From NCBI RefSeq assembly GCF_003473485.1, contig NC_053042.1:8824501-8888500 (forward strand): a DNA stretch of 64,000 nt. Reading direction: 5' to 3'. Each line of letters starts with the position of its first letter. Position 1 is the first letter of the stretch. Position numbers and translations under genes: made by a program. The stretch comes from Medicago truncatula. Taxonomy: Eukaryota; Streptophyta; Magnoliopsida; Fabales; Fabaceae. This document shows positions 6,684 through 35,663 of this stretch, piece after piece. Below the pieces are notes generated by a model that saw nothing but the letters and a program-made list of their open reading frames with translations, was not told the origin of the DNA and did no database searches.

Positions 6684-7458
6684 TTATTTTTAATTCTTAT
6701 AATAAAAAATCTTATTTTTTAATTTTCGTAAAAAAATTGTCAGGATCTTTTGGCTTGATCAAATTTTTCATCAGCATTTTCTTGGTATTTGTGAAATTTT
6801 TCGTAAACATTTTTTGCTTGTTGAGATTAAAAACTCACAAGGGAGTCACAGTGATTATAACTGAGTTGATATGGATATAGATTGTTATACACAGGGTTTG
6901 AACTCTGGATACCTCTTTTGTTCATCTTGTAAAATGTGAATTTTAGCTATTACCAAAACCCTCGTTTTGCTTTTAACTCTCATTCGTAGCTCAAGCACTC
7001 CAATTCTCACTGAAGTGAACTCAAATCCGACCAACACACACTGCCTGCTTTGTACGTTCCTCGTAATTCTTCACTTTCGTTATTTTTTTGGTTTTTTTTT
7101 TGTTTCACTATTGTTATTACATTGAACTTATTCGACACCCATTACTGATCATGAAAAAAACAATATTGACTTATGAATTTTGAACTTATCTACTGATATT
7201 TGTGAGATTGTTTGAGCGAACTGTTCATGGAAACAGTTTATGACATGTCCATAACATGTTTCAGCTTCCATAAGCTCTAAAAAATAGCTTATAAAAACAA
7301 TGAGTAAATGGTCACTTTAGTCTATCTCTCCGTTGTCATATAGATTTCTGACCCTGACTCAGTATTAAATATAAAAAAGCTCTGACTTGTATGAAAATCA
7401 TTTTAATGAATATTATTTTTATTTTCAATTTTTTTTTTGTTCATTAGAAAGAGTGGTA

Positions 7459-7524
7459 ATTTGATCCATTTAGCCGGTGTCACTTAGTGAGATGGGATAA
7501 AGTTTAGTTGTTGTTGTTGTTGTA
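7459..7524 (+). mobile_element. RTE-type LINE 3' tail fragment
   Basis: The end of a non-LTR retrotransposon: a TAGCCGGTGTCACTTAG-GGGATAAA segment followed by a (TTG)n tract. It matches the 3' end of the longer copies at 41199-41479 and 52588-52862. The 5' part is lost. Confidence 0.6.
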
Positions 7525-7655
7525 GAAGGAGCGGTAAATACCACGTGAAACTCACTCACTCACAAATGGAAAGTCTTGAGTTCGAACCTGGGACACCACG
7601 GATATCTGGCCTAACAATTTTGGAATTTGTCAATTGAGTTAGGATTAATGGATAA
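7525..7655 (-). mobile_element. tRNA-derived SINE, family 2, in intron 1 of copy 1
   Basis: Read on the minus strand it has an A-box-like CCTAACTCAATTGACAAA, then CAAAATTGTTAGGCC and a B-box GGTTCGAACTC, parallel to the copy at 38156-38294. The ends are not fixed; no clean target duplication was seen. Confidence 0.55.
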
Positions 7656-7767
7656 TTTATATCATTTTTAATACAGAAATTGCTTATACTTAATACTTAA
7701 TTTACACAACAAACACTTTTGCTATAAGCTATAAGCACTTAATTAAGTTCTTTATCTAAATAGGGTC

Positions 7768-7949
7768 AAACCAAGTTGCTTGGGCTCCCGTGGCAAGGAG
7801 CTCCTTCCAAGGACGTACCCGGGGAATATCGGGTTCGTTTCCCAGGGGGAACAACACTTGGCCAGTGCGCATGCCTCTACGCACGAGCCGGATTAGTCGT
7901 CCACCGTTGGTGGGTCGGAAACCGGTGCGAAAGCCAAAAAAGTAAATAC
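7768..7949 (+). mobile_element. tRNA-like SINE, family 3, GC-rich
   Basis: A 182-bp GC-rich island in AT-rich intron DNA, flanked by ATAGGGTC at 7760-7767 and 7950-7957. It holds a tRNA-like A-box region (TTGCTTGGGCTCCCG), a B-box (GGGTTCGTTTCCC) and a non-tRNA body with CACTTGGCCAGTGCGCATGC. Copy 4 of the gene family keeps an apparent empty site at the matching intron position (about 31420), so the insertion post-dates that duplication. It resembles plant Au-type SINEs, which would need a library search to settle. Confidence 0.7.
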
Positions 7950-9025
7950 ATAGGGTCTTCATTTATAATGAAATTTATGTATACCTTTAGGAGAATTTCA
8001 GACTTGAATCCAGCTTTTGTTTGAACTATTTTCATTTATTGTGTGAAGTTCCATTATTTGGCTTTCTGTTTAATGTAAATTTGTGGATACTGTTTTCCTT
8101 AAGATATCAATTGTAGCTCTAAAATTGACTGTTTCTGTTTTTTATTAATGTTTTCAGTGAGTTTTTCTTTCCCCTCTCAAAGGAGGATATGAGTCAGAAT
8201 TTGAAAAGTCCTAATCCGGACGATAAAGAAACAAGGTTAGAAAGGCGATGGAAGAGACGGGAAGCGATGAATGATAGTTTGAAGCACAATCATGTTGCTA
8301 GTGCCACAAAGACACCTGCGGAGATTTGTGAAAATACCACAATTTTAATAGACGAAAGTGATCATACGATAGATGATGATACAAATGAAGATTGTGAAAT
8401 ACTTTTGGGTGAATGTACCGGTGTCAACGATGAAGTGGAGGCAGATTACAAATCCTTGTTGGCTAAATATAGTCCTGTTATTGAAACTGATAGTGCTAGT
8501 AATCATATTGATGGTTCAGACATTGTTGAAGTCGAGGCAGATTACGGATCCTTGTTGGCTAAATATAATCCTATTATTGACAGACAGTTCTGGTAATCAT
8601 ATTGATGGTTCAAACACTGATGAAGTAGAGGCAGATTACGGATCCTTGTTGGCTAAATATAATCTTATTATTGACACTGACAGTGCTAGTAATCATATTG
8701 ATGGTTCGAAAATTGATGAAGTGGATGCAGATGCAGATTACAGATCCTTTTTGCGAAAGGAGTAGATGTTGTCAATTGACTGAAGCTTTGGTGAAAGGAG
8801 TTTAAAGTAAATACTCAAGGGGTTTGATTGTTGAGCATGTTACATTTATGATTTTAGGTTTCTGGTGTGAAGAATAAAAATCAACAATCTTGTTTTACCT
8901 TATTATTTGCTTTGCTTATGTATTAGAGAATCCATGTATTTTGTATTATGGGACCAAAAGATCAATGAAAATTTTGTATGATATCAACAAATATAGACTT
9001 TATTATATATTTATATCACCTATTC

Positions 9026-11581
9026 CTAATTTCCTTCCACTTGACCTTCATTTTCTTCTCCCTTACAAGGTCCATAAGCCTTACTAAACCAAAGAAAACC
9101 CAAAAAATTGGCCAACATCAATACAAAAAGAAGCCAATAATAGTAATCATAATGTCCCTTATTTATGTTACTAGAAACCCAACTTTCCTTTCCCTCACCT
9201 TTAGTAACATTATCAACAACACTCAAAATCAAACTTGCCAAAACATTTCCAATTGACATACCTAATCCAGAAAGTGTTGATGCTACACTAGACATAGATT
9301 GAGGCAATTCACATATATAAAACTCATTTTGTCCAACACCATTAAAAGCTTCAGCAAAACCATCAAGAATTTGTCTAGGCAATAGCCACATAACTGACAT
9401 GTTCACAACACCTTGTGGAAACTCTATAAAGCCTTCATCAATTGCTAATTTTCTTCTTTTACCTTCTACAATTGCTAATGAAGCTGTTGAGAAACATATT
9501 GCTAATAGTCCAATTCCCATTTTTTGTTTTACTCTTAATCGAGTCGGTGAACGTCTTAATTTTGATGCTGAAGGGATTAAAACACAATCATAGAGGACAA
9601 GCCATAGTACAGTAAAGAGAACCATGAATGTTGCCACTGAAGCTGCGGGGATTTCGAAGTTCGAAGTAATGTGGCGGTTCATGGAGGATGCTTCTAGTAC
9701 ATAAAATGTTCCTTGACTCATATTAATATACATTATCATTCCTGTTATCCAAATTGGGATGATTTTGATCATTGCTTTGAATGCTTCTACTTGATCTATT
9801 GTGCAATGGCTCCATTGGTTTTGAAGTTCTCCATCTTGGTTGTAATCTTGTGGATTTTTTATAAGGCATGCTTTGTTTAGAAACCTTTCAATCAAATCAC
9901 ATATGAAAGCCGGTTAGTGATCACAAAGCACTCTAAAAATAGGATCAGATAATGAGTTGAATGGTTCATAAATTTGATACCTGAATTTATCAGTTGGCAT
10001 AAGCTTTGCAGAATCCTTGTCAGAAAAGTACATGCCATCATTGAAGACATCTGGTGATGGTGATTTGAGGTTTCTGTTTCTGTAAGACGCGATGACAACT
10101 CGAGCAAACTCACTAATCACATTGCCTTTTGGTTCCACCTTAACATAGAGTGAAGAACCTAAAAAGAAAGACACCATAGATATGAACATGAACACAACAG
10201 GTACACCAAATCCAACCATCCAACCAAAAATTTCTTGAATATATGCCAAAACGGTCATTCCAGTTAGGACTGCAGCTGCTGTTAAAGCATAGGTCCAATT
10301 AAAGTAGCCCTCTATGATTCCTGCATCTTTTTCCTTGTTTAGTTGATCAATGCCAAAGGCTAAAGAGGAAGCTCTTACACCACCAGCTCCAATGGAGATT
10401 AAGCATAGAGAAGAGTATAAGAAAGCAAGCTGTGATGTTGTGGGAGAGTTGCAGCTCATAGTGATAGGATCACAAGGACTTAGGTTTGGAATCATAGTTG
10501 TTAGCCAAAAAAGTAGCATTCCCTATAGTGAGACACATAATAATATAAGTAACCAAGAAGTATTGGTCCAAAATAAATATACAACATGAAAATGTTATTA
10601 CAGTGGATTTGGATTGAACTCATAGTAACACGTTTATTGATCTTGGTCATTCGATTTCAAATCAACGGTGGTGAAGATTATTTAAAGCTAATATGGTGGA
10701 AGTGCAATCTAAATAAATAAAGAATACTAGAAAAAATTGAGGAGCAAAAATGAAAAACAAAATAGATTTCTAAGATAAATCTAAGAATTTGGGGATCAAC
10801 TCAACTGAGCAAAACAGCTGATTTGTAAGGTAAGGACTATCCACCAGTTACACACACATTGTCAAACCGTATCTAATTCTTAACAATAAAAACGAACTTA
10901 CAAGTAAATTGAGAAGCAAGCCAAAGACGATGGTAGGGTAGCGGCCAAAGTAAGAATCAGCAAGAAAAGCACCAAGAATTGGTGTGAAATTAGTAGCTGC
11001 TGACCAGAGGAGGATCACATTGGTAGCTACAGGAGTTTCCATCCCATAATGTCTTGTTAAATACAGAATCATGTTTGGCAATATTCCAAAACTTGCCATT
11101 TTCTCAAATGACTGGCTCGCTGCCAAAACAAAGGAAAATAAATCACTTGAAACTCATTTTTTGTCGATAATTAAAATTTTATTGATAATAGTCCAAACTC
11201 AGCATCAAAGTGAGCTAACTCTATCCACCTTTTATGATAATGTAATATTGATCCACATACATTTATATCACTTTTGACGACATTCAACGAACATGCCACT
11301 TGACCAAACAAGTAAGTAAGTCTTGAAAAATACATATTTATTTTTCCTTGTGGAAGAGAAATCAACTTCAAATATGAAAGAAATGATAATGTATCATGGA
11401 TCAATTATGAAAGTGATCCAAAATAGAATTTGCATGAATTATAATATATGATATATGATATGATGAAGAATTAAATTGTACCAAATAAGTTGTATTACTT
11501 ACTTATGATGAAAGGTAAGGTTCTGAAGCCACCCTTTGGGTTTGTAACACTAATTAGAGGCTCTTTCAACGTACTTCCCAT
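9026..11581 (-). CDS. NPF/PTR-family transporter, copy B (complete)
   Basis: Full-length NRT1/PTR (NPF) membrane transporter, 565 residues predicted. Minus-strand exons are 11581-11503 (ATG, MGSTLKEPLI), 11119-10902, 10522-9981 and 9884-9026 (TAG). The last intron is only 96 bp; joining across it gives DKFR-FLNKACLI, a segment conserved in NPF proteins. Visible family marks are NMILYLTRHYGM, LGAFLADSYFGRYPTI, SIGAGGVRASSLAFGIDQ, GYFNWTYALTAAAV, a central hydrophilic loop, and the C-terminal half with SMSSVASTLSGLGMSIGN and HYDYYYWLLF. Length is normal for NPF. Helix 1 has QSFEK where the family usually has ExxE[R/K], as in copy A. Transport substrate is unknown. A ~230-bp tandem array lies directly upstream. 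Confidence 0.92.
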
Positions 11582-11766
11582 TTCTGAACAAACTAAAGAA
11601 ACTGACACAAAGATTAGTTAGAAAGTACATACATTACCAACAAAAACATAAGTAGTGTACATGAGTTGACACGAAGTGTTCAACGTAGTTTGTTTATTTG
11701 TCACGCAGCACCCTATTTTAAGAGTTACTTGACACAAAACCATACATGTGTCCTGTATTTATACTG

Positions 11767-14290: not shown

Positions 14291-14296
14291 ATAAAA

Positions 14297-14610
14297 GGCT
14301 TAATTGCACTTTTGGACCCCTATCTTTTCAAAAGTTGCGGTTATGGACCCTTAACTAATTTAAATACAAAACAGCCCCCTATGTTTTGATTCTTTGGCAG
14401 TTTTGGACCCCCAAGGCAAAAAAAAAATAAAAATTTGACACATGGCACCTCACTTAGGGTGCCACGTCAGCGTTGACCGAGTCAACAATGGACTGGGGGT
14501 CCAAAACTGCCAAAGAATCAAAACATAGGGGGCTGTTTTGTATTTAAATTAGTTAAGGGTCCATAACCGCAACTTTTGGAAAAATAGGGGTCCAAAAGTG
14601 CAATTAAGCC
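14297..14610. mobile_element. Mutator-like MITE (GGCTTAATTGCAC family), copy 1
   Basis: A 314-bp element with near-perfect terminal inverted repeats of about 115 bp (GGCTTAATTGCACTTTTGG...) and a perfect 9-bp duplication AAAATAAAA on each side. The short centre contains ATGGCACCTCACTTAGG and CGTTGACCGAGTCAAC. The element at 18132-18445 is the same sequence inverted, at very high identity. Confidence 0.88.
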
Positions 14611-15009: not shown

Positions 15010-16069
15010 TTTTTTTTTAGCAACGTCAAAATTAATTTATATCATTCAATAATAAAGTTTTCAAACTAGACGGTACATCAGAGAAAATATGGGGGCTAGG
15101 GTGGGATAAGGAAACTCTAGCTATGTTATGAGCTACCTTATTTGCTTACCTCCTTACAAAACGCATAGAAAAGTTAGCGTGGAAAGACAAAAGTTGTTTA
15201 CAATAAAAAATAATCTCACCAAGTTCATTGTGGGGGTTGACACTAGAGTTCACAACATCCACCACAATTTTGCAATCAGATTCGAAGATAACAGATTACA
15301 TGCCTCGAGCAATAGCCAGTTTGACTGCTTCAAGAAGTCCGGTAGCTTCCGCCTCAGATGGAGTGACGCTAAGAAACTCATAATTAGACAAGCCAAGCAG
15401 AAAATGACCCATGGAGTCTCTGAAGCATAAACCATAGCCCATGATAGAGTTATTGTTAAACAACGTGCAGTCAACATTACATTTAACAAATGTCAGCGGA
15501 GGCTTCTCCCACAATGCATCATGTGTTATTTCTTGCACCGGATTGTTTGCTTGTTGCATATAGGTCCATTCATAGAGTGTGTCTCTTGCTCGATTACAAA
15601 CCACAAGCGACGGTGTATCAACATTGTCCCAAAGTTTTCTATTCCGACATTTCCAAAGGCTCCATAGAGTCATAGCTACCAATGCCACTTGAGAAATGGA
15701 TAACCTGTCAAAAAAAGTGAACAACATAGAGGGGAAATCACTGGCAGTGACGAAGATCCCGAACAAGATTATCCAGCTTCAGTAATTTCCAGCAGTTTGT
15801 TGCCTTAGAGCAAACAAAAAAGATGTGCATTTGTGTTTCCGCTAATTCATTACACACCACACAAGTATCGTCGCAAGGGATCCCCTTTTGCACAAGTCGG
15901 GACCTTGTTGGAAGGCATTGGTGTACAAGACGCCAAATGAAGGAACGAACACGCGGTGGTGCCTTCAACTGCCATATTCGGCCCCAGTCAATATTCTGCT
16001 GCACATTATTTGTCTCGGCTGCAAGGGTTATGCAACTATTATAAGCAGATTTGACAGAATAGGATCCGT
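15010..16069 (-). mobile_element. 5'-truncated L1-type LINE (zf-RVT and RNase H-like domains)
   Basis: A 1060-bp minus-strand insertion flanked by a perfect 15-bp duplication CGGTAGTTCTTTTTG (14995-15009, 16070-16084), with poly-A (poly-T at 15010 on the plus strand). The segment around 16004-15738 encodes the zinc-binding reverse-transcriptase tail (LKAPPRVRSFIWRLVHQCLP, then CDDTCVVCNELAETQMHIFF.C). The segment around 15766-15250 encodes an RNase H-like domain (VKCNVDCTLFNNNSIMGYG, SEAEATGLLEAVKLA). The two lie in different frames, so the copy is dead. The polymerase and endonuclease parts are missing through 5' truncation. Confidence 0.92.
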
Positions 16070-16195
16070 CGGTAGTTCTTTTTGATATATATATAAATAT
16101 AAATAATAACTCTGAAAAAGTGTAATATACTATACGGGCCGACTTGATAGACTTTTTTTATAAGTCTAAGCCCGGCCTATTTAAATTAGGGTCTC

Positions 16196-16370: not shown

Positions 16371-16532
16371 ATTCTTCTTTAAATTAATAGGCTTTTTAAA
16401 AAGCTCAAGCTTGACTCATTTATTAAACGAGTTAGACCCCAGACTTTTAGTAGGCCGAGTTGTAAACCCCTGACGGGCAGCATGGCCTATTCCCACCATA
16501 CGTTGATGCCATTACTCAAGTAACCGGGGTTA

Positions 16533-17460: not shown

Positions 17461-17539
17461 TGTTAAAAGGTAAAGTGCTTAGTGTCTGTTGCCTTATCAA
17501 ATCAAATCAATTTGTCTCTTAATCTTCTCTTAAAAACAG

Positions 17540-20500
17540 AAACACAAGTAACCCTCGTTTCACGGTTTCACCACGCATTCGCTGTCTTTTAGCGCAAACC
17601 CCAACTCTCTCTCTCTGCAAACTCAACCTTGTACTTGGTACGTTACTCTTTACTTTTTCACTTCCGTTACTCTTTCTTTTTGTTTCTCTATTGTTTCTTG
17701 TTACATTGATCATCATGAAACAACAATCTTGTCTTCTATTGTATTTGTAACACCCTTTATTGATTTTCTCTGTATTTTTTTGTTATTTCGATCAAACTAT
17801 GTTTGCATTTTTTTCATTGAAATTAATTAACAAAATAGGTTGTCTTTGTCAATCACTTTTTTTGTTACCTAAGGGCCATGCATGCAAACCCTGATTTGAG
17901 CCTTTTGACTTATTTGAGCTTATAAACTGGAATAAGTACTTCTGATGATGTGTGAGATAGCTTATTTGAGCTTACAAACTCTCTTGCATAGCTTGCTTAA
18001 TATTTTTTTACATAAGGGGAATGCATGCACACCCTGATTTGGGTTTATTGACTTATTTGAGCTTATAGGGTTAAATATGTTTTTAATCCCCGGAAAATCA
18101 CGAGTTTTAAGTTAGTCCCTAATAAATTTTAGGCTTAATTGCACTTTTGGACCCCTATCTTTCCAAAAGTTGCGGTTATGGACCCCTAACTAATTTAAAT
18201 ACAAAACAGCCCCCTATGTTTTGATTTTTGGCAGTTTTGGACCCCCATTCCATTGTTGACTCGGTCAACGCTGACGTGGCACCCTAAGTGAGGTGCCATG
18301 TGTCAATTTTTTTTTTTTTTTTTTGCCTTGGGGGTCCAAAACTGCCAAAGAATCAAAACATAGGGGGCTGTTTTGTATTTAAATTAGTTAGGGGTTCATA
18401 ACTGCAACTTTTGGAAAGATAAGGGTCCAAAAGTGCAATTAAGCCATTTTAATGGGAATTTTAGTCCTTCATGATATTGCAGTTTGTAAGAATAATCCTT
18501 CTTTTTCAAAATAGTCATCACAAAAAATGGATACTTTTAGTCCTCAAAATAGTCATTATAAAATGAGACTAAAAGTGAATAGTTTTTTTTTTTTTTCCAG
18601 GGACTAAACATGAAATCTCGTGATTTTGTAGGGACTAAAAACATATTTAACCTTTATTTTTTATCCAATGTTTTTCCACATGTTGTAGCAATTGTTTCCC
18701 TTTTGTTCCTGAAAACGTAGTTTTCATCATTCAAACACGTTGTAAATATCTTGTAGGACTGTGTATGAGTACAGTCAAAGAGTGATTTAAATTTGTGGAT
18801 GAATATTTTCCTTAACATATCAATTGTAAGTTTGTAACACTAAAATTGACTGTTTCTCTGTTTTTTGTTAATGCTTACAGTGAGTTTTTCTTTCCCCTTT
18901 CAAAGGAGGATATTGTTCTCATTCAAGAAAAATGGGGCGAGCTTTAGTAAAGGTTGAACTTGGTGATTCTCATATGAGTGAGTTGAATTATCCTGATGAT
19001 AAAAGAATAAGATCAGAAAGGCGGTGGAGGAGACGAGAGGCCATGAATGACAGTTTGAAGTACAATTGTTTCACTAGTGCTACAAAGACGACTGTGATGA
19101 ATGGTGAAAATATGGCTGCTTTAAATGCTAAAAATGACCATACGATAGATCTTGATGCAGATGAAGATAATGTAAACAATTTGAGTGCAAATACCGGTGA
19201 AGATGATGATAAAATGGATGAAGATCATGGAAATATGGCCGCTTTAATTGATAAAAATGATCATGTGATAGAGTGTGATGCAGCAGATGAAGATAATGTG
19301 AACAATTTGAGTGCAAATACCGGTGAAGATGATGATGAAATGGGTGAAGATCATGGAAATACGGCTGCTTTAATTGATAAAAACGATCATACTATAGATG
19401 ATGAGGCTGATGAAGATTATGCAGAATTTTTGAGTACATATACTGGTGAAGAGGTTGATGAAACGGATGAAGATTATGGAAATACGGATGCTTTAATTGA
19501 TAAAAATAATCAGACTATAGATGATGATGCAGATGAGGATTATATGAAATTTTTGAGTGGATATACCAGTGAAGACGATGATGAAACGGATGAAGATTAT
19601 CGATCCTTTTTGACTACATATGATCCTGATATTCTAACTGATTGTTCTAGTAATCACAATGGAGGTTCAAATGGCAACAACAGTGGCAGTGATGAAACGG
19701 ATGCAGATTACGCAGCCTTTTTGCCTACATATAATCCTGATGATAGTGGAATTGATTGTGCTAGTAATCACAGTGGTTCAAATATTGACGTCAACTTTGA
19801 CGACAACACTGGCAGGGAGGATGTAGGAGAAGGTTGCAGTTATTTTCCGAATCAATCTGTTTCTGATCATATTAGTGATGGTGTTGGTGTAGATGAAGAT
19901 GATCAGTTACTAGGAAAAAGTTCAAGTGTTAGGCGAAATTCACTCGTTTCTGATCAGGAATTTGATACTCCTGAAGTGCAGTTTGATGTTGATGAAGATT
20001 ATGAACAATTCCTTAATTCTGTGACGATTGTTGATGACGATAAGGAGTATTTTCGTGACAAGAATACCACCAACACATCCAATGTGGAGGATGAGAATAA
20101 TTCCTCTGATTCAGATCTGATTATTTTGGATTCTTATCCAATTTGTGAAAACACCCCTTTCGTTTCTTCAAAAACATATGATACATCGGTAAATATCTTC
20201 AACTTCACAGTGTGTCTCTATATTAATGATATTTTGCAAACGGTCCACAAACATGCACGCTGTTCCGTTTTTTTAAAGAAACAAATCCAAAAAATTAATT
20301 TTTATTTTCTCCCATAACACGTCTTTATGCTATGTGTTTTTAGTGTTTTGGAGATAAAATGAACCCCGAAGACAACAACCAAATAGCTGCTTATGATCTT
20401 TCTGAATTCCGGAAAAGACTTATGGAATGTCTTGACAGGCCTTATGACCAAAAAGAGTATGATGAGCTTCTTCTCAAAGCATCTAAGCATACAAAAAAAG

Positions 20501-21688
20501 AACGCCATCTAGAAACCCGGCGGGGGGTGGTCAAAGCATATTACTCTAAAGGTCTTAGCAAATCATATCTTGATATGTACCCTGGTAGGTCCATATCTTT
20601 TCAAGTATTCTTCTGGCTTCTTAGATTTTCTTCTTTTATTTATAAAAATGGTATAGCTTAAAGTTTGATCCTAAGGATGCAATCAAGATTCATTGCTCTA
20701 TATTCAATCATCACCACTACCATTGCAAAACTCTCACTTGATGTGTTGGGTGGACCAACGAAAACTTAGTTGAATTATAAGCTTTTAGAGAAGAGAAGGT
20801 TATACACTTCATCTTTCATGTCATGAAACCTTAAAACTATCTTGTATTGACATATATTTTCTACTTTGTGATAGTTGTTTGTCAGTGTCATTTCCAAAAC
20901 AATGTGTCAAAAGTAATTTTGAGCTTCATGAATAAATGTAATTTGCTCATGAACTTATGAGTTAATTTGTTATTGAACTTAATAAATAACATTAATCACG
21001 GATTCTTTGATTTCTCTGTAGTCGAGCTAGATCATGATACCTATTAATCACGGGCTCATTCTGTGACCGACAAGTAATGATTTCTAATCATCACTATATT
21101 TGTGTTAGATTTTGCTGAGAACATCATTTCAGTCTATATTCTAATGTGTGGTTGGTTTGTGCAAGCTTTTTGGTAGCTTATACTTCTTTTGGATTTTCAA
21201 CTTCTATTCTTATTATAGCTCAACTCTTTCGATGCTCAATCTGATTTCAGGCCTCTATCAAATATTTGTTTCGTAATTGTGCAGATCTAGTAAAAGTTAT
21301 TACCGAGTTCAAGGAACAACATAGGGTTTTGTTTCTCTTGCGAGGATTTTTTTTCTGGGTGGAAGTAAGTCAATAAATTTATGTTCACATAATTTCCTGT
21401 ATTAATGATTATTTTCGTGACATGGCATAAACTTTTGATGCAATTCCCTAGATTATTGTACAGTTTTATTTGGTGCATTGTTTCATAATTCAACTTTTGA
21501 TGTTTTTGTATCGAACACAGATAAATATGTGAGTTTCATGTATACATCTGCTAATCGTTGTGAATTGTTTACGTTGGAAGTTATTTTGATGTACTTTTGT
21601 CTGTCCATTTTTGCAGAAAGTGAGCCTCTTGGGAAGGTTTCAGCCTTGGCGTGACGAATCATGTTTAGAGATATTGCAAAAAATATAA
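17540..21688 (+). CDS. Acidic-repeat unknown family, copy 2 (complete, 549 aa)
   Basis: I do not recognise this family. Predicted exons: 5'UTR about 17540-17637; leader plus CDS 18881-20188 (ATG 18932); 20344-20584; 21285-21364; 21617-21688 (TAA). GT-AG boundaries and phases agree with copies 3 and 4. The N-terminus has a basic stretch (ERRWRRREAMNDSLKYN). It is followed by four 41-42-residue acidic repeats starting N(M/T)xALIDKNDH and rich in DEDY and GEDDDE. Next come DETDADYAAFLPTYNPD units and a VTIVDDDKEY segment that is multiplied in copy 3. The short C-terminal exons are the conserved part: AAYDLSEFRKRLMECLDRPY, YLDMYPGD, RVLFLLRGFFFW and FQPWRDESCLEIL. No signal peptide or transmembrane stretch is evident in the main exon; it is strongly acidic and probably disordered. 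No function is assigned. Intron 1 holds nested MITEs. Confidence 0.75.
18069..18652. mobile_element. MITE with GGTTAAATATGTTTTTA ends, hosting a second MITE
   Basis: Left end GGTTAAATATGTTTTTAATC and right end GGGACTAAAAACATATTTAACC form imperfect inverted repeats that also share a TCACGAG block. Nested inside is the element at 18132-18445, so the host element is the older one. The target duplication is not clear. Confidence 0.7.
18132..18445. mobile_element. Mutator-like MITE (GGCTTAATTGCAC family), copy 2, nested
   Basis: A 314-bp element, essentially the inverse of the one at 14297-14610. The long inverted ends are the same and the central block GACTCGGTCAACGCTGACG is reversed. It is flanked by ATTTTA on both sides; a full 9-bp duplication is not visible. 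It lies in intron 1 of copy 2. Confidence 0.85.
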
Positions 21689-23959: not shown

Positions 23960-26900
23960 CACCAAAACCCTCGTTACACTTTTGCCACACATTCTCAATC
24001 TTTTAGCACAAACCCCGATTTTCTCTGGTAACTACGCTACTTTTCACTTCTGTTATTTTTTTTTTTGTTTCTCTATTGTTGTTGCTACATTCAACTCAAA
24101 CTATTTCTCAATCACATTTTTTTATTTATTTAAAATAATTTGCATAAGGGGGGAGGAGGCACACCCAATTTCGGGTTTTTATGAATCGGCTTATTTGAGT
24201 TTATCTAATGTCGTAACTACTTGTGAATCTGTTTGAGAGAGCTTATAAAAACAACTTATGACATGTTTCATAAACTGCTTTCAGCTTAAGCTCTATAAGA
24301 TAGTTTACGAAAACAAAACAATTTGAAGCTCTATAAGATTTGTTTCGACTACTTTCGTTTATTGTAGATCCTTGGAAATTTTAGAAATACAATTGTGGTG
24401 TGTTTGATCTATTAGAAAATAAGGGACAAGACAAGACAACTGTAGTTGTACTGTGTTTGATTGTAAAACTGTTTCATGGACATAACAAACTGGGGACAAG
24501 AGACATGCCAAAAACTGAAATTTTTGCCTCTCATTAAATTACTTTCATTTTTTAGATTTTAGAAATGCAATGTGTTTGACAAGTTTCATTATGGTTATCT
24601 ATCCCTGTGGCTTAACTCAGTTGGTACGGATATTGCATATTATATGCAGGGGCCGAGGTTCAAACCTCGGACACCCCACTTCTCCACATTTAAAATGTGC
24701 GAGATCTAACCACTGAGCTGCTTGACCAAATAAAAGTTTCATTATGGTTATCTTAGAAATTTCAATAGCTGCACATGACAACGAACCCTCATAAACTAGT
24801 GAAAGACATTTCTTGTAGATAACTCTAGAATTCTATTTAATGTTAGGTAATTTTTCATCCAATGTTTTTCGACATGTTCTAAATTTGTTGCCCTTTTGTT
24901 CCTCAAAACATAGTTTTCATGATTCAGACTTGTTAGGATAATATCTCGTAGGATTGTGTATGTATGAATACAATAAATGAGTGCTTTAAATTTGTAGATA
25001 AATATATTCCTTAAGACATCAGATATCAATTGTAACACTAAAATTGATTGTTTCTCTCTTTTTTCATTAATGTTTGCAGCGAGTTCTTTTATATCTGTTC
25101 AAAAGAGGATAGTGTTCCCATTAAAAGAAAAATGGAGCGTGCTTTAATCATGTTTAACCTGGATGATTCTCATACTGATGATAAAACAAAAAGGTTAGAA
25201 AGGATATTAAGAAGACGGAAGGCCAGGAATAATAGTTTGAAGCACAATCGTGTCGTTAGTGCTTCAAGAACAACTGCGATGATTTGTGGAAATACGAATG
25301 TTTTAATAGATGTAGATGATCATAAGATTGATGTTGATATTGGTTCTCATATGAGTGAGAATTTGAAGAGTCCTGATACCGACAATAAAAGAAAAGGGTT
25401 AAAAAGGCTATCAAGAAGACAAGAGGCCAGAAGTGATAGTTTGAAGCGCAAACGTGTCACTAGTGCTTCAAGAACAACTGCGATGATTTGTGCAAATACA
25501 AATGTTTTAGAGAATATAAATGATCATACGGGTGATGATGATGATGAATTGGATGAAGATTACAAATCTTTTTTAATTACATATGATCCTGATAACAAAA
25601 ATGTCAGTGATGAAGTGGATTCAGATTATGCTACACTTTTGGCTACATATGATCCTATTGTTGAAATTGACAGTGCTAGTAATCGTCGCGGTAGTTCAAA
25701 TATTGGCGTTAGCAATATCAATGACAATCATCAAGTGGATGCAGATTACCAATCCTTTTTGCCTAGATATGATCCTGGTCATATCAGCGATGATGTTGGT
25801 GTAAATGAAGATGATCACAGATTGGTTAATCTAGGTAGTGAGTCACTAGGAAAAAGTTCAAGTGTTAAGCGAAATTCACTGGTTCCTGTGACGATTGTTG
25901 ATGGTGATAAGGAGTATATCCGTGGTAAGAATACCAAAAACACATCCAAGGTGGAGGATAGTGAGTCACTAGGACAAAGTTCAAGTGTTAATCGAAATTT
26001 ACTAGTTCCTGTGACGATTGTTGATGGTGATAAGGAGTATATGCGTGGTAAGAATACCAAAAACATATCCAAGGTGGAGGGTAGCGAGTCACTAGGACAA
26101 AGTTCAAGTGTTAAGCGAAATTCACTAATTCCTGTGACGATTGTTGATGGTGATAAGGATTATATGCGTGGTAAGAATACCAAAAACACATCCAAGATGG
26201 AGGGTAGTGAGTCACTAGGACAAAGTTCAAGTGTTAAGCGAAATTCACTAGTTCCTGTGACGATTGTTGATGGTGATAAGGAGTATATGCGTGGTAAGAG
26301 TACCAAAAACACATCCAAGATGGAGGGTAGTGAGTCACTAGGACAAAGTTCAAGTGTTAAGCGAAATTCACTAGTTCCTGTGACGATTGTTGATGGTGAT
26401 CAGGAGTATATGCATGGTAAGAATACCACAAACACATCCAAGGTGGAGGGTAGCGAGTCACTAGGACAAAGTTCAAGTGTTAAGCGAAATTCACTAGTTC
26501 CTGTGACGGTTGTTGATGGTGATAAGGAGTATATGCGTGGTGTTCCTGTGACGATTGTTGATGGTGATAAGGAGTATATGCGTGGTAAGAGTACCAAAAA
26601 CACATCCAAGATGGAGGGTAGTGAGTCACTAGGACAAAGTTCAAGTGTTAAGCGAAATTCACTAGTTCCTGTGACGATTGTTGATGGTGATCAGGAGTAT
26701 ATGCATGGTAAGAATACCACAAACACATCCAAGGTGGAGGGTAGCGAGTCACTAGGACAAAGTTCAAGTGTTAAGCGAAATTCACTAGTTCCTGTGGCGA
26801 TTGTTGATGGTGATAAGGAGTATATGCGTGGTAAGAGTACCAAAAATACATCCGAGATGGAGGGTAGTGAGTCACTAGGACAAAGTTCAAGTGTTAAGCG

Positions 26901-29587
26901 AAATTCACTAGTTCCTGTGACGATTGTTGATGGTGATAAGGAGTATATGCGTGGTAAGAGTACCAAAAACACATCCAAGGTGGAGGGTAGTGAGTCACTA
27001 GGACAAAGTTCAAGTGTTAAGCGAAATTCACTAGTTCCTGTGACGATTGTTGACGGTGATAAGGAGTATATGCGTGGTAAGAATACCAAAAACACATCCA
27101 AGGTGGAGGGTAGTGAGTCACTAGGACAAAGTTCAAGTGTTAAGCGAAATTCACTAGTTCCTGTGGCGATTGTTGACGGTGATAAGGAGTATATGCATGG
27201 TAAGAGTACCACAAACACATCCAAGGTGGAGGATGGGGGTATTCCCTCCGATCCAGATGTAACTATTTTGAAATCTTATCCAATTTGTGAAGCTAACCCT
27301 TTCGTTCCTTCAAATATATATGATTCATCTGTAAGTTTCTTCAACTTTACACTGTTTCTGTATTAGTAATATTTTTCAAATGGTCTACAAACATGCACAT
27401 TATTCAAAAAATTATATTTTTTTAAACAATTTCAAACTGTTAATTTTTAACTTTTTTTCATAACACGTCTATGCTTTGTGTGTTTAGTGTTTTGGAGAAG
27501 AAGTGAACCCCAAAGACAACATGCAAATAGCTGCTTATGATGATTCTCAATTTAGGAGAAGACTTTTGGAACATCTTGACAGGCCTTATGACCAGAAAGA
27601 GTATAAGTCCCTTCTAATCGAACTATGTGACAAAAAGCAACTGGAACGCCAATACGAAACATGGAAGGGGGAATTTGAATCATATGACACTGAAGGTGTC
27701 ACTACACCGTATTATGTAATGTACCCTGGTAGGTCCATATTTTCTCAATTGTTCTAACTTCTCTGGTTTCCTTATTTCGTACGGTAGCATAAATTTTGGT
27801 CCTAAATATGCGACCAAAATTCAATGGTCTCAATTCAATCCTCACTACTACTAGCATTAAATAAACCCTCACTTGATGTGTTGGGTGGACCAACCAAAAC
27901 ATAGTTGAATTATATGATTTAAGATTAAGAGAAGGTTATACACTTCATCTTTATCATCATAAAACCTGAAACTATCTCCTGTTGATTTGTATTTTCATCA
28001 TATTGTGAATTTGTGATGGTTGTTTGTGTTTGTTAAAATTATAAACAGGATTGTCTGTGTCAAATTTTAATGTTGGGGGGTTGAGTCGTGATTGTTATTT
28101 CCAAAACAATGCGTCAGAGTAATGTAGAGCCTCGTGAATAAATGTAGTTTGCTCATGAACTTATGAGTTAATTTATTATTGAGCTTAATACATGACTGAC
28201 TAGGTATAGCAATCTTTGAATTCTCTGTAGTCATGCTACCTTTTAAGCACGGACTCATTCTACGACTGACTAGTACTGATTACTAATCACCACTATATTT
28301 TGGTTAGATTTTGTTGAAAGAACGTCATTTCTGTCTATATTATAATTTGTGGTTAGTTTGTGCAAGTTTTTTGGTATCTTCTATTGGATTTTCAACTTCT
28401 ATTCTCATTATTGCTCAACTCTTTCTATGCTCAATCTGATTACTGGCCTCTATCAAATATTTGTTTTGTATGTAATTGTGCAGATCTATCCAAAGCTATT
28501 GCTAAGGAGCCCAAGAATAAGCGCAGGGTTTTGTTTCTCTTGCGTGGTTTTTTTTTCTATCTGAAAGTAAGTCAATGGATTCTCGTTCACATAATTTTGA
28601 GCATTAGATCCTTAATGTGTATGAAGAATATTTTGCCTGCTGAAGCAATGATTTGATAGGAAAGGGGGCGTTGACATGCCAGAGTTCTTGTTTTGTGAGT
28701 AGGAGGTTTTAGGTTGAATCATCAAATCAGTCTCTTGCAAAGCAATGCTTGACGATTCCTTGGATTTGAACCCTGCGATTGAAAGAGATTTAAAGAACTG
28801 GGTTGCCCCTTTGAAGCAATAATTTTATAAACTATATTGTTGCATATCGTTAACATGGTGGTGATGGGTTTTAATGACTTCAAATCTGGAGCTCTTTCTG
28901 GTGTATGATCGTCAACTAAGAAAACGAATCCCCTTAGAGGCAAGCTAGCTCTTAAATCGAGCTACAGTCTACCTATATAGGTAGACTATTTTTCTAGGAT
29001 ATGATGGTTAGACTAAGAAAATGAATCCCCTATGGTATTCTTTTCATACACATGAATCCCAGGATCCAACCCAAGAACACATACCTATAAATGTTTAATT
29101 AAAACATTATGCAGCAAGCAACTGTGTGTTTTGTTAGTGACATTGATGTTTGCAAAATTGATGTCTTTATAATACACATTACACAATATATATAATCTAG
29201 TAACTTTTCTTTAGTTAAGACACGATTAAAAATGGAAATATAAATTGGTATGAGGCAATTGGATACAGTTCTTCTGACCATGCCTCCTTTACTAATTAGA
29301 AATGGTCTATTTAGTTTTTTTTAATTATGATTATTTCTGTGACATTGCATAAACTTCTCATGGAATTCTGTCTGCTGCATTGTTTCATAATTAGATATTT
29401 AATGTTTTTATTTCTAAGACATGTTAATATTATGGTAACACTATCTATGCTAACTGTTGTGAACTGCTTGCAATGGAAGTTATCTTGATGTACTTTTGTC
29501 TGTCGATTTTTGCAGAACGTGTGTCACATGGGATCATTTCAGCCTTGGCTTGACGAGTCATGTTTGGAGTTAATGCGAAAAATTTAA
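23960..29587 (+). CDS. Acidic-repeat unknown family, copy 3 (864 aa, 41-aa repeat expansion)
   Basis: Unknown family, see copy 2. Exons: 5'UTR ending 24027; 25080-27330 (ATG 25132); 27488-27728; 28484-28566; 29516-29587 (TAA). I chose ATG 25132 (MERALIMFNL) because it aligns with MGRALVKVEL of copy 2; the longer open frame to 25048 runs back into the intron, before the TTTGCAG acceptor. After two basic N-terminal motifs (ERILRRRKARNNSL, KRLSRRQEARSDSL), the exon carries three DYxSFLxTYDP units. Ten full copies of a 41-residue repeat (VPVTIVDGDKEYMRGKNTKN, then TSKVEGSESLGQSSSVKRNS) and partial ones follow; copies 2 and 4 have this segment once. The C-terminal exons match the family (RRRLLEHLDRPYDQKEY, VMYPGD, RVLFLLRGFFFYLK, GSFQPWLDESCLELMRKI). 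Everything stays in frame, so the gene looks intact. Confidence 0.75.
24601..24733 (+). mobile_element. tRNA-derived SINE, family 1, in intron 1 of copy 3
   Basis: A 133-bp element with A-box GTGGCTTAACTCAGTTGG and B-box GAGGTTCAAACCTC, flanked by a perfect 20-bp duplication (24581-24600 and 24734-24753). Copy 4 has the uninterrupted site near 31600 (CCATTATGGTTAATCTTAGA), so the insertion is younger than the copy 3/copy 4 split. Confidence 0.92.
25838..27226 (+). repeat. Coding minisatellite, 123-bp unit
   Basis: Ten full 123-bp units plus one 45-bp partial unit (about 26500-26544) and end partials, all in frame within copy 3. Variant positions (KSTKNTSKM then QEYMHGKNTTNTSKV) recur in the same order on both sides of the partial unit, showing that a block of several units was itself duplicated. 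Confidence 0.95.
28660..28815. repeat. SINE-like repeat shared by copies 3 and 4
   Basis: The block from GGAAAGGGGGCGTTGACATG to TGGGTTGCCCCTTTGAAGC includes a B-box-like TTTGAACCCTG. It occurs at the same intron position in copy 4 (34700-35015), so it predates their split. Assignment as a SINE is tentative. Confidence 0.45.
28966..28987. repeat. Perfect 22-bp palindrome in copy 3 last intron
   Basis: AGTCTACCTA and TAGGTAGACT flank a central TA to make an uninterrupted palindrome. The matching stretch in copy 4 (about 35128-35152) is imperfect. Confidence 0.8.
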
Positions 29588-31204
29588 AATTGAAATCTCT
29601 TATATCTAGGATTAGAGCCTTGTTGTTGTTGTTGTATCTAGTATTAGGATTGAAATCTCTTAAGGTTTTCATAAGCTTAGTAATAGTTAGATGAAGTGTC
29701 TCTTAGCTGAACCTTATGAAAACAAAATATGAAAATCTATTTATTTTATTTGGTTTTTCTCTCATTTGATAAAGAGTTGAGGATTGTGAAGTCATGACGA
29801 AAGCGAATCGAGGCAGCGCAAACATAATTGATTTAGTGGAATCCACTTATTAAAAAGGGTCCAACTAATTTATCACTTATACTCATTTCTTGTACAAATA
29901 GAGAGTGAACCGAGGTAGATAAAAGGAGTAAAATTGAAGTTGTTTGTTTGTCTTTAAAGTGGTGGTAAAAATAATTAGACAAATGTTAATTTTTGTCCGA
30001 AATGTAGATATTAAAAACCTTAATATAGAAATGTCATCTTAAAGGTTATGCATTCAATTATTGTGCCAATAAGTTCTAACTCAACTGATAAAAATGTCAA
30101 AATTGTTAGACCTAATACTATGATCAATGTTCAAACCGCGACACTACAACTTATGTATGTGGATTTACAATGACTTCGTCTTTCTACCAAAAAAAAAAAG
30201 TGAAAATTGCTTCTTCTTTTTTCAATAAAAAAAATATATCCATTTATAAACTCGTTGTATGTAGGTCTACACCAAGAGTATTAGCTCATTTTTATTTATT
30301 TATTTTATTTGAAGGAAGAGTATCAACTGATTGTTAGCTCTATCTTTCTTAATACGTATACACAAGAATTTCTGTAACAAAAAATGTGTTGAAGCGAATA
30401 TTGACCAATCTTTCGGCATGAGTGTCCTAACTCTATAAGCATCAGTGTCTAACATGTATTCCCATGGTGGAGAAAAGAAGATGGGTACAAAATGAAAAAA
30501 ATAAAAAAGTGTCTCAAGATTATTGGTAGATGATTAGAGCATCTCCAATGAAAAGTCATTTACTTAACAATGACCTCAACCTTTTAAAAGACCCCATCGA
30601 GAGAGGAAAAATGGGTACTCATTAGTTACCAACAATTATATAAAGACTTTGTCTATCTATTCTCAACGACTAACAGATCCCACAATAAAAAGAAGAAATA
30701 AAATATGTACAAGTTGGTCTCACCTTTCAAATTCATCTTATTCTTGCTATCTTTAATTTTTTTTTTAAAATTTATTTAAGGGTTAAATATGTTTTTGGTC
30801 CCTATAAATATATCAGCTTTTCGTTTTAGTCCGTCTAAAATTTTCCTTAAACTTTTAGTCCCTACAAAATTTTCAATCACTACTTTTGGTCCTTATTTTT
30901 ATGTCAACTTTTGTATTTTTTAATGAAATTGTAGAATATTGTAAAAAAAATTAGAATTTTTTAACAAAATATAAATTAAATATGAATTTTTAACCATCAA
31001 AAATATAAAAATTTATATTAAATTTATGTTTTGTTAAAAAATTCTAATTTTTTTTTAGAGATCATTATAATATTATGAATTTTTCAGTAAAATTTTATGC
31101 TATTTGTAAAGTCGGAGGGATGGGTAATTTAAAAATCATAAATTTACTGAAAACGGTATTATTTCTTGATCAACTTCTGATCCCCTTAATTTTCCATTAA
31201 AAGA
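29588..31204. other. Spacer between copies 3 and 4: no gene, two repeats
   Basis: AT-rich spacer. At about 30065-30195 there is a plus-strand SINE family 2 piece (TTCTAACTCAACTGATAAAA, CAAAATTGTTAGACC, GTTCAAACCGC). At 30781-31100 there is a second GGTTAAATATG-type MITE whose interior matches 3644-4106. No open frame with family similarity was seen. Confidence 0.55.
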
Positions 31205-34200
31205 AGAAACAGAACCAAACACTTTCGGATCCACCATGCATTTCTTTTCTTCTTTTACCACAAACCCCAATTCTCCCTCTGTCATGTGAACTCTCGTTGG
31301 TAAGTAGCTACGTTACTCTTCGCTTTTTCACTTTCGTTGGTTTTTTTGTTTTTGTTTCTTGTTACATTGAACTCAATCTTGTCTTGTTGATTTTTTAATT
31401 AAGTTGTTTATCCAAACATTACTTTATAATGGAATTTATGTAGATCTTTAGGAGAGTTTCGGACTTGAACCCTAGTCAGAGCTAGTTTGAGCGATGTCCA
31501 GCTATGCAACTTTTGTTTTCCATTTGCGTTATTTGTTTGAACTACTTTCATTTATTGAAGGTCCTAAAAAATTTAGAAACACAATATTTTTTATAAGCTC
31601 CATTATGGTTAATCTTAGAAATTTCGATAAATGCACATGACAACAATCCCTCATAAACCAATCAAACACATTTCCTATAGATAACTCTGGCTTTCTATTT
31701 AATGTTTGGTAGTTTTTCATCCAATGTTTTTCCACAGATTGTAGAAATTAATGCCCTTTTGTTCCCCTGAACATAGTTTTCATGATTCAGATATGTTTCG
31801 AAAATACCTCGTGTATGAATACAGTCAAGAGTGCTTAAAATTTGTAGATAAATGTATTCCTTAAGATATAGAGTATCAGTTGTATCGATAAAATTGATTG
31901 TTTCGCTGTTTTTTTATTAATGTTTGCAGCGAATTCTTCTTTTCCCTTTCAAAGGAGGATTTTGTTCCCATTAAAGGAAAAATCGAGCGTGCTTTCATCA
32001 TGTTTAACCCGGATGGCTCTCATGCTGATGATAAAACAAAAAGGTTACGAAGGCTATTAAGAAGACGGGAGGCCAGGAATGATATTTTGAAGCATAATCG
32101 TGCCGTTAGTGCTTCAAGGACAACTGCGATGATTTGTGGAAATACGAATGTCTTAATAGATAAAAATGATTATATGATAGATGATGATGTAAGTGAAGAT
32201 TGCAGAATAATTTTGATTGCAAATACTGGTGATGATGATGATGAAGATTATGGATCTTTTTTAACTACTTATAATCCTGGTATTGAAAATGACAGTGATA
32301 AGGTGGATTCAGATTTCGCTACCTTTTTGGCTACATATGATCCTGGTGTTGAAATTGACAGTGATAAGGCGGACTTAGATTACGCTACCTTTTTGGTTAC
32401 GTATGATCCTGGTGTTGAAAATGACAGTGATAAGATGGATTCAGATTACAGTACCTTTTTGGCTACATATGATCCTGGTGTTGAAATTGACAGTGCTAGT
32501 AACCATAGTGGTGCTTCAAATATTGATGTTGGCAATAGCAATGACAATGATGAGGTGGATGCAGGTTACCAATCACTGTTGCCTACATATGATCCTCCTG
32601 GTTATATTAGCGATGATGTTGGTGTAGATGAAGATGATCACATATTGGTCAACCTGGGCAGTGAGTCACTAGGACAAAATTCAAGTGATAAGCAAAATTC
32701 ACTATTTTCTGATCCCGCATTTGAAAAAAGCAATGAACTATTCCTTGATCCTACATATGATCCTCCTGGTTATATTAGTGATGATGTTGGTGTAGATGAA
32801 GGTGATCACAGATTGGTCAATCTGGGTAGTGAGTCGCTAGGACAAATTTCATGTTTTAAGCAAAATTCACTAGTTTCTGATCCGGCATTTGAAAAAAATA
32901 ATGAACTAATCCTTAATTCTGCGACGATTGTTGATGGTGATAAGGAGTATATGAGTTGTAAGAATACCACAAACACACCCACGGTGGAGGATGGGGGTAA
33001 TTGCTCCGATCCAGATGTTACTATTTTGGAACCTTATCAAGTTTGTGAAGATACCCCTTTCGTTCCTTCAAAAAGATATGATTCATCTGTAAGTGTCTTC
33101 AACTTTGCAGTGTACCTGTATTAGTCATATTTTGCTAATGGTCTACAAACATGCACATTATTAAAAAATAATAACTTTTTTTAAAGAAACAATTTCAAAC
33201 AGTTAATTTTTAACATTTTTCATGACACATCTATGCTTTGTGTGTTTAGTATTTTGAAGAATTGAATCCCAAAGACGAAGTGCAAATAGCTGCTTATGAT
33301 GATTCTCAATTTAGGAGAAGACTTTTGGAACATCTTGAAAGGCCTTATAACCAACAAGAGTATGAGTCCCTTCTGCTCGAACTATGTGAGAAAAAGAAAC
33401 AGGAACGCCATTTCGAAACACGGCGGAGGGTGGTTGAATCATATCACACGGAAGGTGTCACTACACCGTATCATGTAATGTACCCTGGTAGGTCCATATT
33501 TTCTCAACTGTTATGACTTTGATAGGAACTGATATCAAAATATAAACTAATAGTAATATTACAATATAATCCCAAGAAATTAGAGAGTCTTGGTTCTCTC
33601 CCCTCCAAGAATTCGAAAGCTTGGTCTCTCCCTACCTATCCTTTATCCCAATCCCTGAATACCTTTCTTTTCCTCTGCATCTTATTTATAATACTAACTC
33701 ACTCCTATAGCAGTTACATATTAGTTTAGTAGACAAACACTACTGCAGACAGCAATTACTGCACATAAGTAACAGTTACTAATTTATAATACTATTAAAT
33801 AAACAACTAGTATTCTATAACTTCTTCCCTTAGGAGTCCTATATCTAACAGACTTCTCAAGTTTTCTTATTTCGTATGTAAAAATGGTAACGTAGAGTTT
33901 AATCCTAAATAGGCAGTCATAATGATGTGTTGGGTGGACCAACCAAAACATAGTTGAATTATATGATTTGTGATTAAGAGAAGGTTATACACTTCATCTT
34001 TCTTGTTATAAAACATGAAACTATCTCGTATTGATTTGTATTTTCTTCATATTGTGATGGTTGTTTGTGTTTGTTAAAATTATTATAAACAGGATTGTCT
34101 GTGAAATTCTTTAATGTTGGGGGGTTGAGTCGTGATTATTATTTCCAAAACAATGTGTCAGAGTAATGTAGAGCCTCATGAATAAATGTAATTTACTCAT

Positions 34201-35663
34201 GAACTTATGAGTTAATTTATTATTTGAGCCTAATATATGACAATAACCGTATATCAATCTTTTATTTCTGTGTAGTCAAGGTATTTCATGGTACCTTTTA
34301 AGTATGGGCACATTCTGCGACTGACTAATACTAATTTTTAATCATCATTATGTTGTGGTTAGATTTTGCTGAAAGAACATAATTTCTGTCTATATTCTAA
34401 TTTGTGGTCTGTTTGTGCAAGTATTTTGGTAGCTTCTATTGGATTTTCAACTTCTATTCTTATTATCGTTCAACTCTTTCTATTCTCAATCTGATTTCAG
34501 GCCTCTAACAAATATTTGTTTCATAATTGTGCAGATCTAACCAAAGCTATTGCTGAGGAGTCCAAGAATAAGCGTAGGATTTTGTTTCTCTTGCGTGGAT
34601 TTTTTTTCTATATGAAAGTAAGTCAATAGATTCTCATTCACATAATTTCGAGTATTAGATCCTTAATGTGTATGAAGAATATTTTGCCTGCTGAAGCAAT
34701 GATTTGATAGGAAAGGGGGCGTTGACATGCCAGAGTTCTTGTTTTGTGAGTAGGAGGTATTAGGTTGAGTCATCAAATCAGTCTCTTGCAAAAGCAATGT
34801 TTTTCTATATGAATGTAAGTTGATAGATTCATGTTCACATGATTTCTAGTATTAGTCTATTAGATCCTTAATGTGTGTATGAAGAATAGGACTAGGAGGT
34901 ATCAGGTTCAGTCATCAAGTCAGTCTCTTGCAAAAACATGTTTGACCATTCCTTGGATTTGAACCCTGCTATGGCAAGAGATTTAAAGCACTGGGTTGCG
35001 CCTTTGATGCAATAGTTTTATAAACTGTGATGTAGGCATTCTACATGCGTGATTTACGTAGATTGAACAAACTTAGAGCCCTTTCTGGTTGTAAATTTTT
35101 TTTATCCGTTGAGGTAAGCTAGCCCTTAAATTGAACTACGGTCTACCTATATATGTAGATTATTTTTCTGGGGTATGATCGCTGGTCTAAGACAATGAAT
35201 CCCCTATGTACACTATCCTCTATGCTATTTAATTAAAACGATTTTTGCAAAATTGATGTTTTCTATAATACAAAATATATAATCTACCATATTTTCATTA
35301 GTTAATACACAAAATTAAAAATAGAAATAGAAATTTGTATGAGGCAATTGGATATAGACTTTCTGGCTGTGTCTCATTTACTAATTAGAAATTGTCTATT
35401 TAGTAGTTTTTAGTTATGATTATTTCTGTAACGTTGCGTAAACTTCTCGTGGATTTAACTAGATTATTCTACAGTTTTGTTTGGTGCATTGTTTCATAAT
35501 TCAACATTTGTAAAAACATATTTTGCCAACTGTTGTGAATTGCTCGCAATGAAAGTTATTTTGATGTACTTTTGTCTGCCGATTTTTGCAGAATGTGTGC
35601 CACATGGGTTCATTTCAGCCTTGGCTTGACGAGTCTTGTTTGGAGTTAATGCGAAAACTGTAA
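31205..35663 (+). CDS. Acidic-repeat unknown family, copy 4 (493 aa, usual start codon lost)
   Basis: Unknown family, see copy 2. Exons: 5'UTR ending 31299; 31930-33088; 33250-33487; 34535-34617; 35592-35663 (TAA). The codon matching the start of copy 3 is ATC (IERAFIM), so translation probably begins at the next in-frame ATG, 32000 (MFNPDGSHADD), losing six residues; the open frame back to 31898 lies partly in the intron. The exon has the basic motif LRRLLRRREARNDIL and four DSDYATFLATYDPGVEI-type units. A second block of about 56 residues (TYDPPGYISDDVGVDEDDH ... SLGQ) occurs twice. The VDGDKEYM segment occurs once. The C-terminal exons match copy 3 (LLEHLERPYNQQEYE, VMYPGD, RILFLLRGFFFYMK, GSFQPWLDESCLELMRKL). 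Intron 3 carries a solo LTR, intron 4 a local duplication. Confidence 0.72.
33520..33850 (-). mobile_element. Solo LTR, Ty1/copia-like
   Basis: A 331-bp insertion in copy 4, absent from the same intron of copy 3. Read on the minus strand it starts TGTTAGATATAGGAC and ends GGAACTGATATC-reversed CTATCA, with a TATAAATA box. It is bounded by a 5-bp duplication GACTT (33515-33519, 33851-33855). No internal region is left. The insertion is younger than the copy 3/copy 4 split. Confidence 0.85.
34604..35015 (+). repeat. Local duplication of exon-4 tail and SINE-like block in copy 4
   Basis: TTTTTCTATATGAAAGTAAG at the exon end is repeated near 34800 as TTTTTCTATATGAATGTAAG, with the following ~80 bp of intron and part of the SINE-like repeat. 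A second, decoy splice donor is therefore present. Copy 3 has the segment once. Confidence 0.75.

Follow-up and report, generated by a model that had tools for sequence, protein, structure and literature searches.

A Medicago truncatula gene family that expands different parts of one repeat arm beside a shared C-terminal module

We analysed a 64,000-nucleotide window of the Medicago truncatula genome (C1:8824501-8888500 on contig NC_053042.1; the genome comprises 430 Mb in 42 contigs), which holds a cluster of related genes at 18.9-35.7 kb, copies 2, 3 and 4, all intact and on the plus strand, together with a truncated relic, copy 1. Each intact gene joins a long repeat-bearing arm, encoded by a single exon, to a shared C-terminal module, and the arms are expanded in different parts. 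At a probability of slightly under two in five, we propose that these genes encode a nuclear-type scaffold family with a multivalent motif arm that would be altered by in-frame tandem duplication, a mechanism we infer from sequence; our preference for this reading over neutral drift is modest, the two being held with nearly equal confidence. Compared with an earlier note on the same window, the analysis adds an intact copy on contig C2 with an expansion of its own, a distant relative on contig C3, and a C2 fragment that is apparently processed.

In the layout of these proteins, a short basic head, putatively a nuclear localization signal, precedes a probably disordered one-exon arm and the C-terminal module. 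The arm carries two linear motifs, an acidic-aromatic D[EAS]DYxxFLxTY and a hydrophobic-then-acid VTIVD[GD]D, the latter accompanied by DLIIL/DVTIL at the arm end, and in-frame tandem duplication has multiplied one motif or the other in different copies. The module may dock on a fixed nuclear partner, and the arm may serve as a platform for multivalent binding on which the number of motifs would set avidity; the arm's candidate partner would be SUMO in copy 3, with its 12 motifs fitting the SUMO-interacting motif (SIM) consensus, and a coactivator- or histone-type protein in copies 2 and 4 and the C2 copy.

Results and Discussion

Gene models of the cluster

Each gene contained one large exon 2 followed by three short exons (exons 3-5). 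Spliced models of copies 2, 3 and 4 were open throughout their four coding exons, used canonical GT/AG introns and encoded 549, 864 and 493 residues, in agreement with the range of 493 to 864 residues predicted in the earlier note. Intron phases were identical in these three genes and in the C2 copy, being phase 0 between exons 2 and 3, phase 1 between exons 3 and 4, and phase 0 between exons 4 and 5. A non-coding leader exon was located in copies 1 and 2 and the C2 copy, and by eye only in copies 3 and 4; the coding sequence of copy 4 starts at a later ATG than those of copies 2 and 3. A tblastn search of the window with exons 3-5 of the four full genes matched the nine corresponding exons of copies 2-4 (E ≤ 0.01), and outside these copies no exon 3, 4 or 5 was matched in the window at E 0.01, the 201 weaker matches up to E 10 being at chance level (best 0.082). 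Because copy 1 has no C-terminal exons and its reading frame shifts within its repeat, it is a truncated relic. The description of four plus-strand paralogues with common C-terminal exons and splice phases thus holds for copies 2, 3 and 4, but not for copy 1, which lacks exons 3-5 and has a broken frame.

Expansion of different parts of one arm

Tandem Repeats Finder (TRF) recovered the repeat arrays previously described for all four copies, with periods and copy numbers of 96 bp × 3.2 in copy 1, 123 bp × 4.0 in copy 2, 123 bp × 5.8 and × 5.6 in copy 3, and 66 bp × 3.6 plus 168 bp × 2.0 in copy 4. The copy 3 array resolved into 10 full 41-residue units, one 30-residue unit and one part unit. 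The view that every copy carries a different repeat had to be given up, as a single DYxxFLxTYxP-type unit, which also occurs a few times in copies 2 and 3, underlies both EVEADYGSLLAKYNPII of copy 1 (judged by eye) and DSDYATFLATYDP of copy 4. Exon 2 alignment and motif counts revealed two kinds of arm motif. The first, D[EAS]DYxxFLxTYxP with its variants, has been multiplied in copy 4, in the C2 copy and, again by eye, in copy 1, and it appears repeatedly in copies 2 and 3 too, giving 5, 3, 5 and 8 DYxxFL-type motifs in copies 2, 3 and 4 and the C2 copy, respectively, against shuffle means of 0.016-0.071. The second, VTIVD[GD]D(K/N)EY, is single in copy 2 and the C2 copy, single as ATIVDGDKEY in copy 4, and present 12 times in copy 3, while the ~41-residue unit of copy 2 is a third mixture (ALIDKNDH...DEDYxxFL). 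The "different" repeats thus arose where separate segments of a single arm expanded. In copy 3, reading of the sequence shows that the basic head of exon 2 has been doubled as well, a feature overlooked in the earlier note.

The net charge of exon 2 was −85 in copy 2, −51 in copy 4 and −67 in the C2 copy, but −4 in copy 3, whose repeat unit has a net charge of +2, so that the arm can be called acidic in copies 2 and 4 but not in copy 3. A single-sequence AlphaFold2 model of copy 4 exon 2 had a mean predicted local distance difference test (pLDDT) score of 33, with 346 of 363 residues below 50, compatible with the disorder already suggested for the arm, which is probably disordered. Two Pfam candidates on the arms were rejected, HOK_GEF on copy 3 (27.4 bits, Pfam cut-off 22) and Mcm-like_N on the C2 copy (27 bits, cut-off 26), since no stretch of either arm passed alone and the scores were taken as sums over repeats.

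A shared module with relatives elsewhere in the genome

A genome search with copy 3 exon 3 matched four places, namely copies 2-4 and C2:2.55 Mb, where the C2 copy forms a full gene that encodes 537 residues and has its own expansion of 108 bp × 6.0. A degenerate DNA pattern for LLRGFFF occurred at 26 genome sites, of which five belonged to the family and the other 21, judged by eye, were mostly runs of T. Through this pattern a further gene was found at C3:47.99 Mb, sharing the three intron phases of the window genes (last acceptor placed by eye). Its module was 32% identical to that of copy 3 and reached local alignment scores of 139-197 against each of the four genes, compared with a best of 63 among 2000 shuffles per pair; in sequence terms, the C3 gene is a distant homologue of the module. 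Aligning the modules of copies 2-4, the C2 copy and the C3 gene left 28 of 131 columns invariant, including FR..L, RPY, LLRGFFF and F.PW.D..C. Genome searches with exons 3 and 4 of the C3 gene yielded no further members, and RGFF[FY]W sites on C4 and C5 were read and rejected as chance. Within the C3 locus (L047, C3:47988600-47998500), a second exon-like stretch (HNLTHEGTFVPWKVPSCLD) follows the terminal exon at ~5940-6170, its splice acceptor seemingly lost (by eye).

The module spans ~130 residues over three short exons and is probably helical. An AlphaFold2 model of exon 3 (three sequences) was helical but poor, with a mean pLDDT of 60 and a predicted template modelling (pTM) score of 0.30. 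Searches of Pfam, NCBIfam, PHROGs and PDB sequences with the module returned nothing beyond chance, the best E values being 0.022 (Pfam CotJB) and 0.041 (a PHROG), with none in NCBIfam; the statement that no named family is known for it stands, "unrecognised" meaning in these libraries. Literature searches on the family, including the names PTHR34194 and F14J8.16, found nothing. The module and the C3 gene may belong to PANTHER PTHR34194 "F14J8.16 protein", an uncharacterised plant family with an LLRGFFFWL C-terminus, and related plant proteins are presumably catalogued as uncharacterised entries.

Ratios of nonsynonymous to synonymous divergence (dN/dS, Nei-Gojobori) were calculated for two clades, copy 2 with the C2 copy and copy 3 with copy 4. 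Module dN/dS was 0.52 and 0.58 within clades and 0.70-1.06 for the four between-clade pairs. Between copies 3 and 4, dN (0.108) was lower than intron divergence K (0.182; bootstrap fraction with dN>K, 0.001), indicating constraint on the module within this clade, and the corresponding values for copy 2 and the C2 copy were 0.112 and 0.139 (bootstrap fraction 0.137), leaving no clear difference. In the four pairs that span the clades, dN was as high as K or higher (0.28-0.29 against 0.20-0.24; bootstrap fraction 0.90-0.97), a comparison in which the filtering of introns to windows at least 55% identical can lower K and thus favour dN>K, and from which no positive selection is claimed. With the C3 gene as outgroup, unique changes in copies 3/4 versus copy 2/C2 numbered 12 v 6, 12 v 5, 13 v 3 and 15 v 4 (chi-square 2.0-6.4). 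Together, the dN and intron K values and the outgroup counts indicate that the module is only weakly constrained and has changed faster in the lineage of copies 3 and 4. Of the earlier picture of a conserved module beside a fast-changing arm, the shared module and the rapid change of the arm are retained, but "conserved" is too strong, the module itself evolving fast by the between-clade values.

Truncated and processed fragments

Copy 1-like fragments with stops, in which exon 2 was the only coding part matched, were found at C2:3.52, C1:54.88 and C3:57.15 Mb (L024, L025 and L026). The first (C2:3522517) also has leader sequence like that of copy 2 (34 bp, 85% identity, E 1.6e-4 in a 430-bp stretch) and lacks the leader intron of 0.9-1.2 kb. 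The leader match stops ~39 bp short of the junction with exon 2 and, in copy 2, 38 bp short of the donor. This fragment is apparently a processed copy, its leader match being short, and its direct junction of leader and exon 2, with the intron gone, is indirect evidence that transcription and splicing of the family probably took place in the germ line in the past.

Truncated copies dispersed on three contigs, one of them apparently processed, could also belong to a transposon-encoded or transposon-captured family. We consider this highly improbable, as the searches of the 430 Mb turned up only five loci with the module, the introns have retained identical phases, and Pfam reported neither a transposase nor a reverse-transcriptase domain in the products of exons 2 and 3.

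Recent repeat change and the case for drift

The 10 full units of the copy 3 array were 92-100% identical (mean 95%), and at 26251-26832 a 291-bp block of the array was tandemly duplicated in frame, the two halves differing by 2 mismatches and the breakpoints not coinciding with the register of the 123-bp unit. The junction does not result from in-register unequal exchange, and therefore unequal exchange, which the earlier note had invoked for the arms, is at most one of several processes. Relative to their consensus, the full units carried 27 nonsynonymous changes against 6 synonymous ones, a per-site ratio of 1.37, in agreement with the accelerated divergence of repeats described in PMC5120217. 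As in the rapidly evolving tandem-repeat proteins treated there, divergence between units is accelerated, relaxed or positively selected, whereas in the present family the expansion affects a different segment of the arm in each of four paralogues, which keep a shared module. The unit changes are also compatible with drift, and the suggestion that arm length is "tuned" is unsupported.

Such a ratio of changes, the copy 1 relic, the three fragments with stops and a between-clade dN close to intron K would all be expected if the genes were dispensable duplicates with drifting minisatellites, their arms changing without function and the copies heading to pseudogenes like copy 1. We treat this as a serious possibility, only slightly less probable than the scaffold reading. 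Against it, all four genes are fully open with intact splice sites despite intron divergence of 0.14-0.24 between them, dN is below K for copies 3 and 4 (not clearly so for copy 2 and the C2 copy), the invariant module columns reach to the C3 gene, and dN/dS within the clades is 0.52-0.58. Likewise, TRF gave periods that are multiples of three for all arm arrays of copies 2-4 and the C2 copy. An array with such a unit stays open in any frame once it is open, so an open array is by itself a weak sign of coding, and a better one comes from the intact exons downstream.

Acidic arms as possible activation domains

The acidic runs with interspersed Y, F and L in copies 2 and 4 and the C2 copy raise another possibility, that the family encodes an acidic transcription activator or chromatin adaptor whose DYxxFL arrays are activation-domain-like or histone-binding, with a strength that scales with repeat number and no involvement of SUMO. 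Windows of 40 residues with a net charge of −9 or lower and at least 6 W, F, Y or L residues, cut-offs that are a heuristic with no control set, made up 89 of 380 in copy 2, 73 of 324 in copy 4 and 27 of 368 in the C2 copy, with copy 3 fitting weakly (30 of 694). Exon 2 of the C3 gene also holds KRKRGRPIK, which by eye is AT-hook-like, although Pfam reports no AT-hook in this gene at E 1. The activator explanation appears rather unlikely to us, because Pfam reports no DNA-binding domain in the window genes, copy 3 has expanded a non-acidic unit instead, and the window cut-offs have the limits just given. Compared with acidic activation domains as described in PMC12509984, the arms of copies 2 and 4 and the C2 copy are similarly acidic, probably disordered and spaced with Y, F and L; they differ in that no DNA-binding domain is recognised here, copy 3 departs in composition, and activity is predicted at most.

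SUMO-interacting motifs and the scaffold model

The SIM consensus consists of an hXhh or hhXh core with an acidic flank (PMC8616421). VTIV followed by DGD fits the hXhh-plus-acid form, as does the arm end (DLIILDS; DVTIL). Under a scan rule written after the motif was seen, exon 2 of copy 2, copy 3, copy 4, the C2 copy and the C3 gene contained 3, 15, 4, 3 and 3 SIM-like sites, respectively, against shuffle means of 0.42-1.91, with fractions of 0.036, 0, 0.016, 0.010 and 0.006 of 1000 shuffles reaching these counts, a test that overstates independence for copy 3, whose 12 motifs are one motif duplicated. Eight other open reading frames of the window had 2 such sites in 2288 residues.

The timing of the scan rule and the common origin of the 12 motifs both weigh against the scaffold model, as do the following points. 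The SIM consensus is degenerate. The core of the copy 3 unit was variable in 1 of 7 columns compared with 16 of 41 overall, and it was not significantly more conserved than the remainder of the unit (P=0.15; columns counted by eye). Because alignment of exon 2 between the C3 gene and the window genes was not above shuffles (0.15-0.98 of 300 shuffles reached the score), common ancestry of the arm motifs with the C3 gene is unproven. The between-clade dN values of the module and the poor exon 3 model, both given above, also count against it.

A bolder extension of the scaffold model would make copy 3 a natural poly-SUMO reader, formed by recent lineage amplification of a single SIM to 12 near-evenly spaced copies, with sister genes having multiplied another part of the arm, so that the family would swap partner specificity and valence by the choice of motif. 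We regard this as distinctly unlikely, though worth stating. Like the poly-SIM SUMO-targeted ubiquitin ligases RNF4 and RNF111, as covered by PMC8616421, copy 3 has an hXhh core with acid (VTIVDGD), here 12 times, in a probably disordered arm; unlike them, its exons 2 and 3 have no RING reported by Pfam, the spacing is mostly a regular 41 residues, and SUMO binding is predicted only.

If the genes are expressed and functional, the family would let nature's own variants show how valence is acquired by short linear motifs: a single genome contains four full genes that combine closely related modules with arms of 3-8 DYxxFL motifs, one of these arms also having 12 SIM-like motifs, and one duplication is only two mismatches old. 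Binding and function could then be set directly against motif number. Should the copies instead be dispensable, they would represent ordinary minisatellite drift in decaying tandem duplicates.

Features of the window

Table 1 Positions of the leader, exons and repeat array of copies 1-4 in the window
Feature	Position	Strand	Remarks
Copy 1 leader exon, non-coding	6960..7051	+	Start approximate; donor GT at 7052; partly aligns with the C2-copy leader
Copy 1 exon 2 relic	8158..8765	+	Head and ~96-bp repeat × 3.2; broken frame; without exons 3-5
Copy 2 exon 2, coding part	18932..20188	+	Basic head, 123-bp repeat × 4, five DYxxFL motifs
Copy 2 exon 3	20344..20584	+	C-terminal module
Copy 2 exon 4	21285..21364	+	LLRGFFFW
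Copy 2 exon 5	21617..21688	+	FQPWRDESCLE...stop
Copy 3 exon 2, coding part	25132..27330	+	Doubled basic head, three DYxxFL motifs, VTIVDGD array
Copy 3 repeat array	25834..27231	+	123-bp (41-residue) unit; 12 PV[TA][IV]VDGD SIM-like cores
Copy 3 exon 3	27488..27728	+	C-terminal module
Copy 3 exon 4	28484..28566	+	
Copy 3 exon 5	29516..29587	+	
Copy 4 exon 2, coding part	32000..33088	+	66-bp repeat × 3.6, 168-bp block × 2
Copy 4 exon 3	33250..33487	+	C-terminal module
Copy 4 exon 4	34535..34617	+	
Copy 4 exon 5	35592..35663	+	

The copy 1 relic is flanked on the minus strand by a gene that, by eye, encodes an NRT1/PTR-type transporter and by part of another such gene (2543-2824 and 9026-11153). 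The leader intron of copy 1 holds a ~173-bp element (7769-7941); of 40 places scored, from 1448 first-look candidates, 37 others on C1-C8 match it at 89-96% identity, and the element is presumably similar to a short interspersed element (SINE). On the minus strand at 15296-16157, open stretches look by eye like the RNase H end of a non-LTR (long terminal repeat) retroelement, and outside the gene cluster, at 38780-39080, a 148-bp tandem repeat is present in two copies that are 92% identical.

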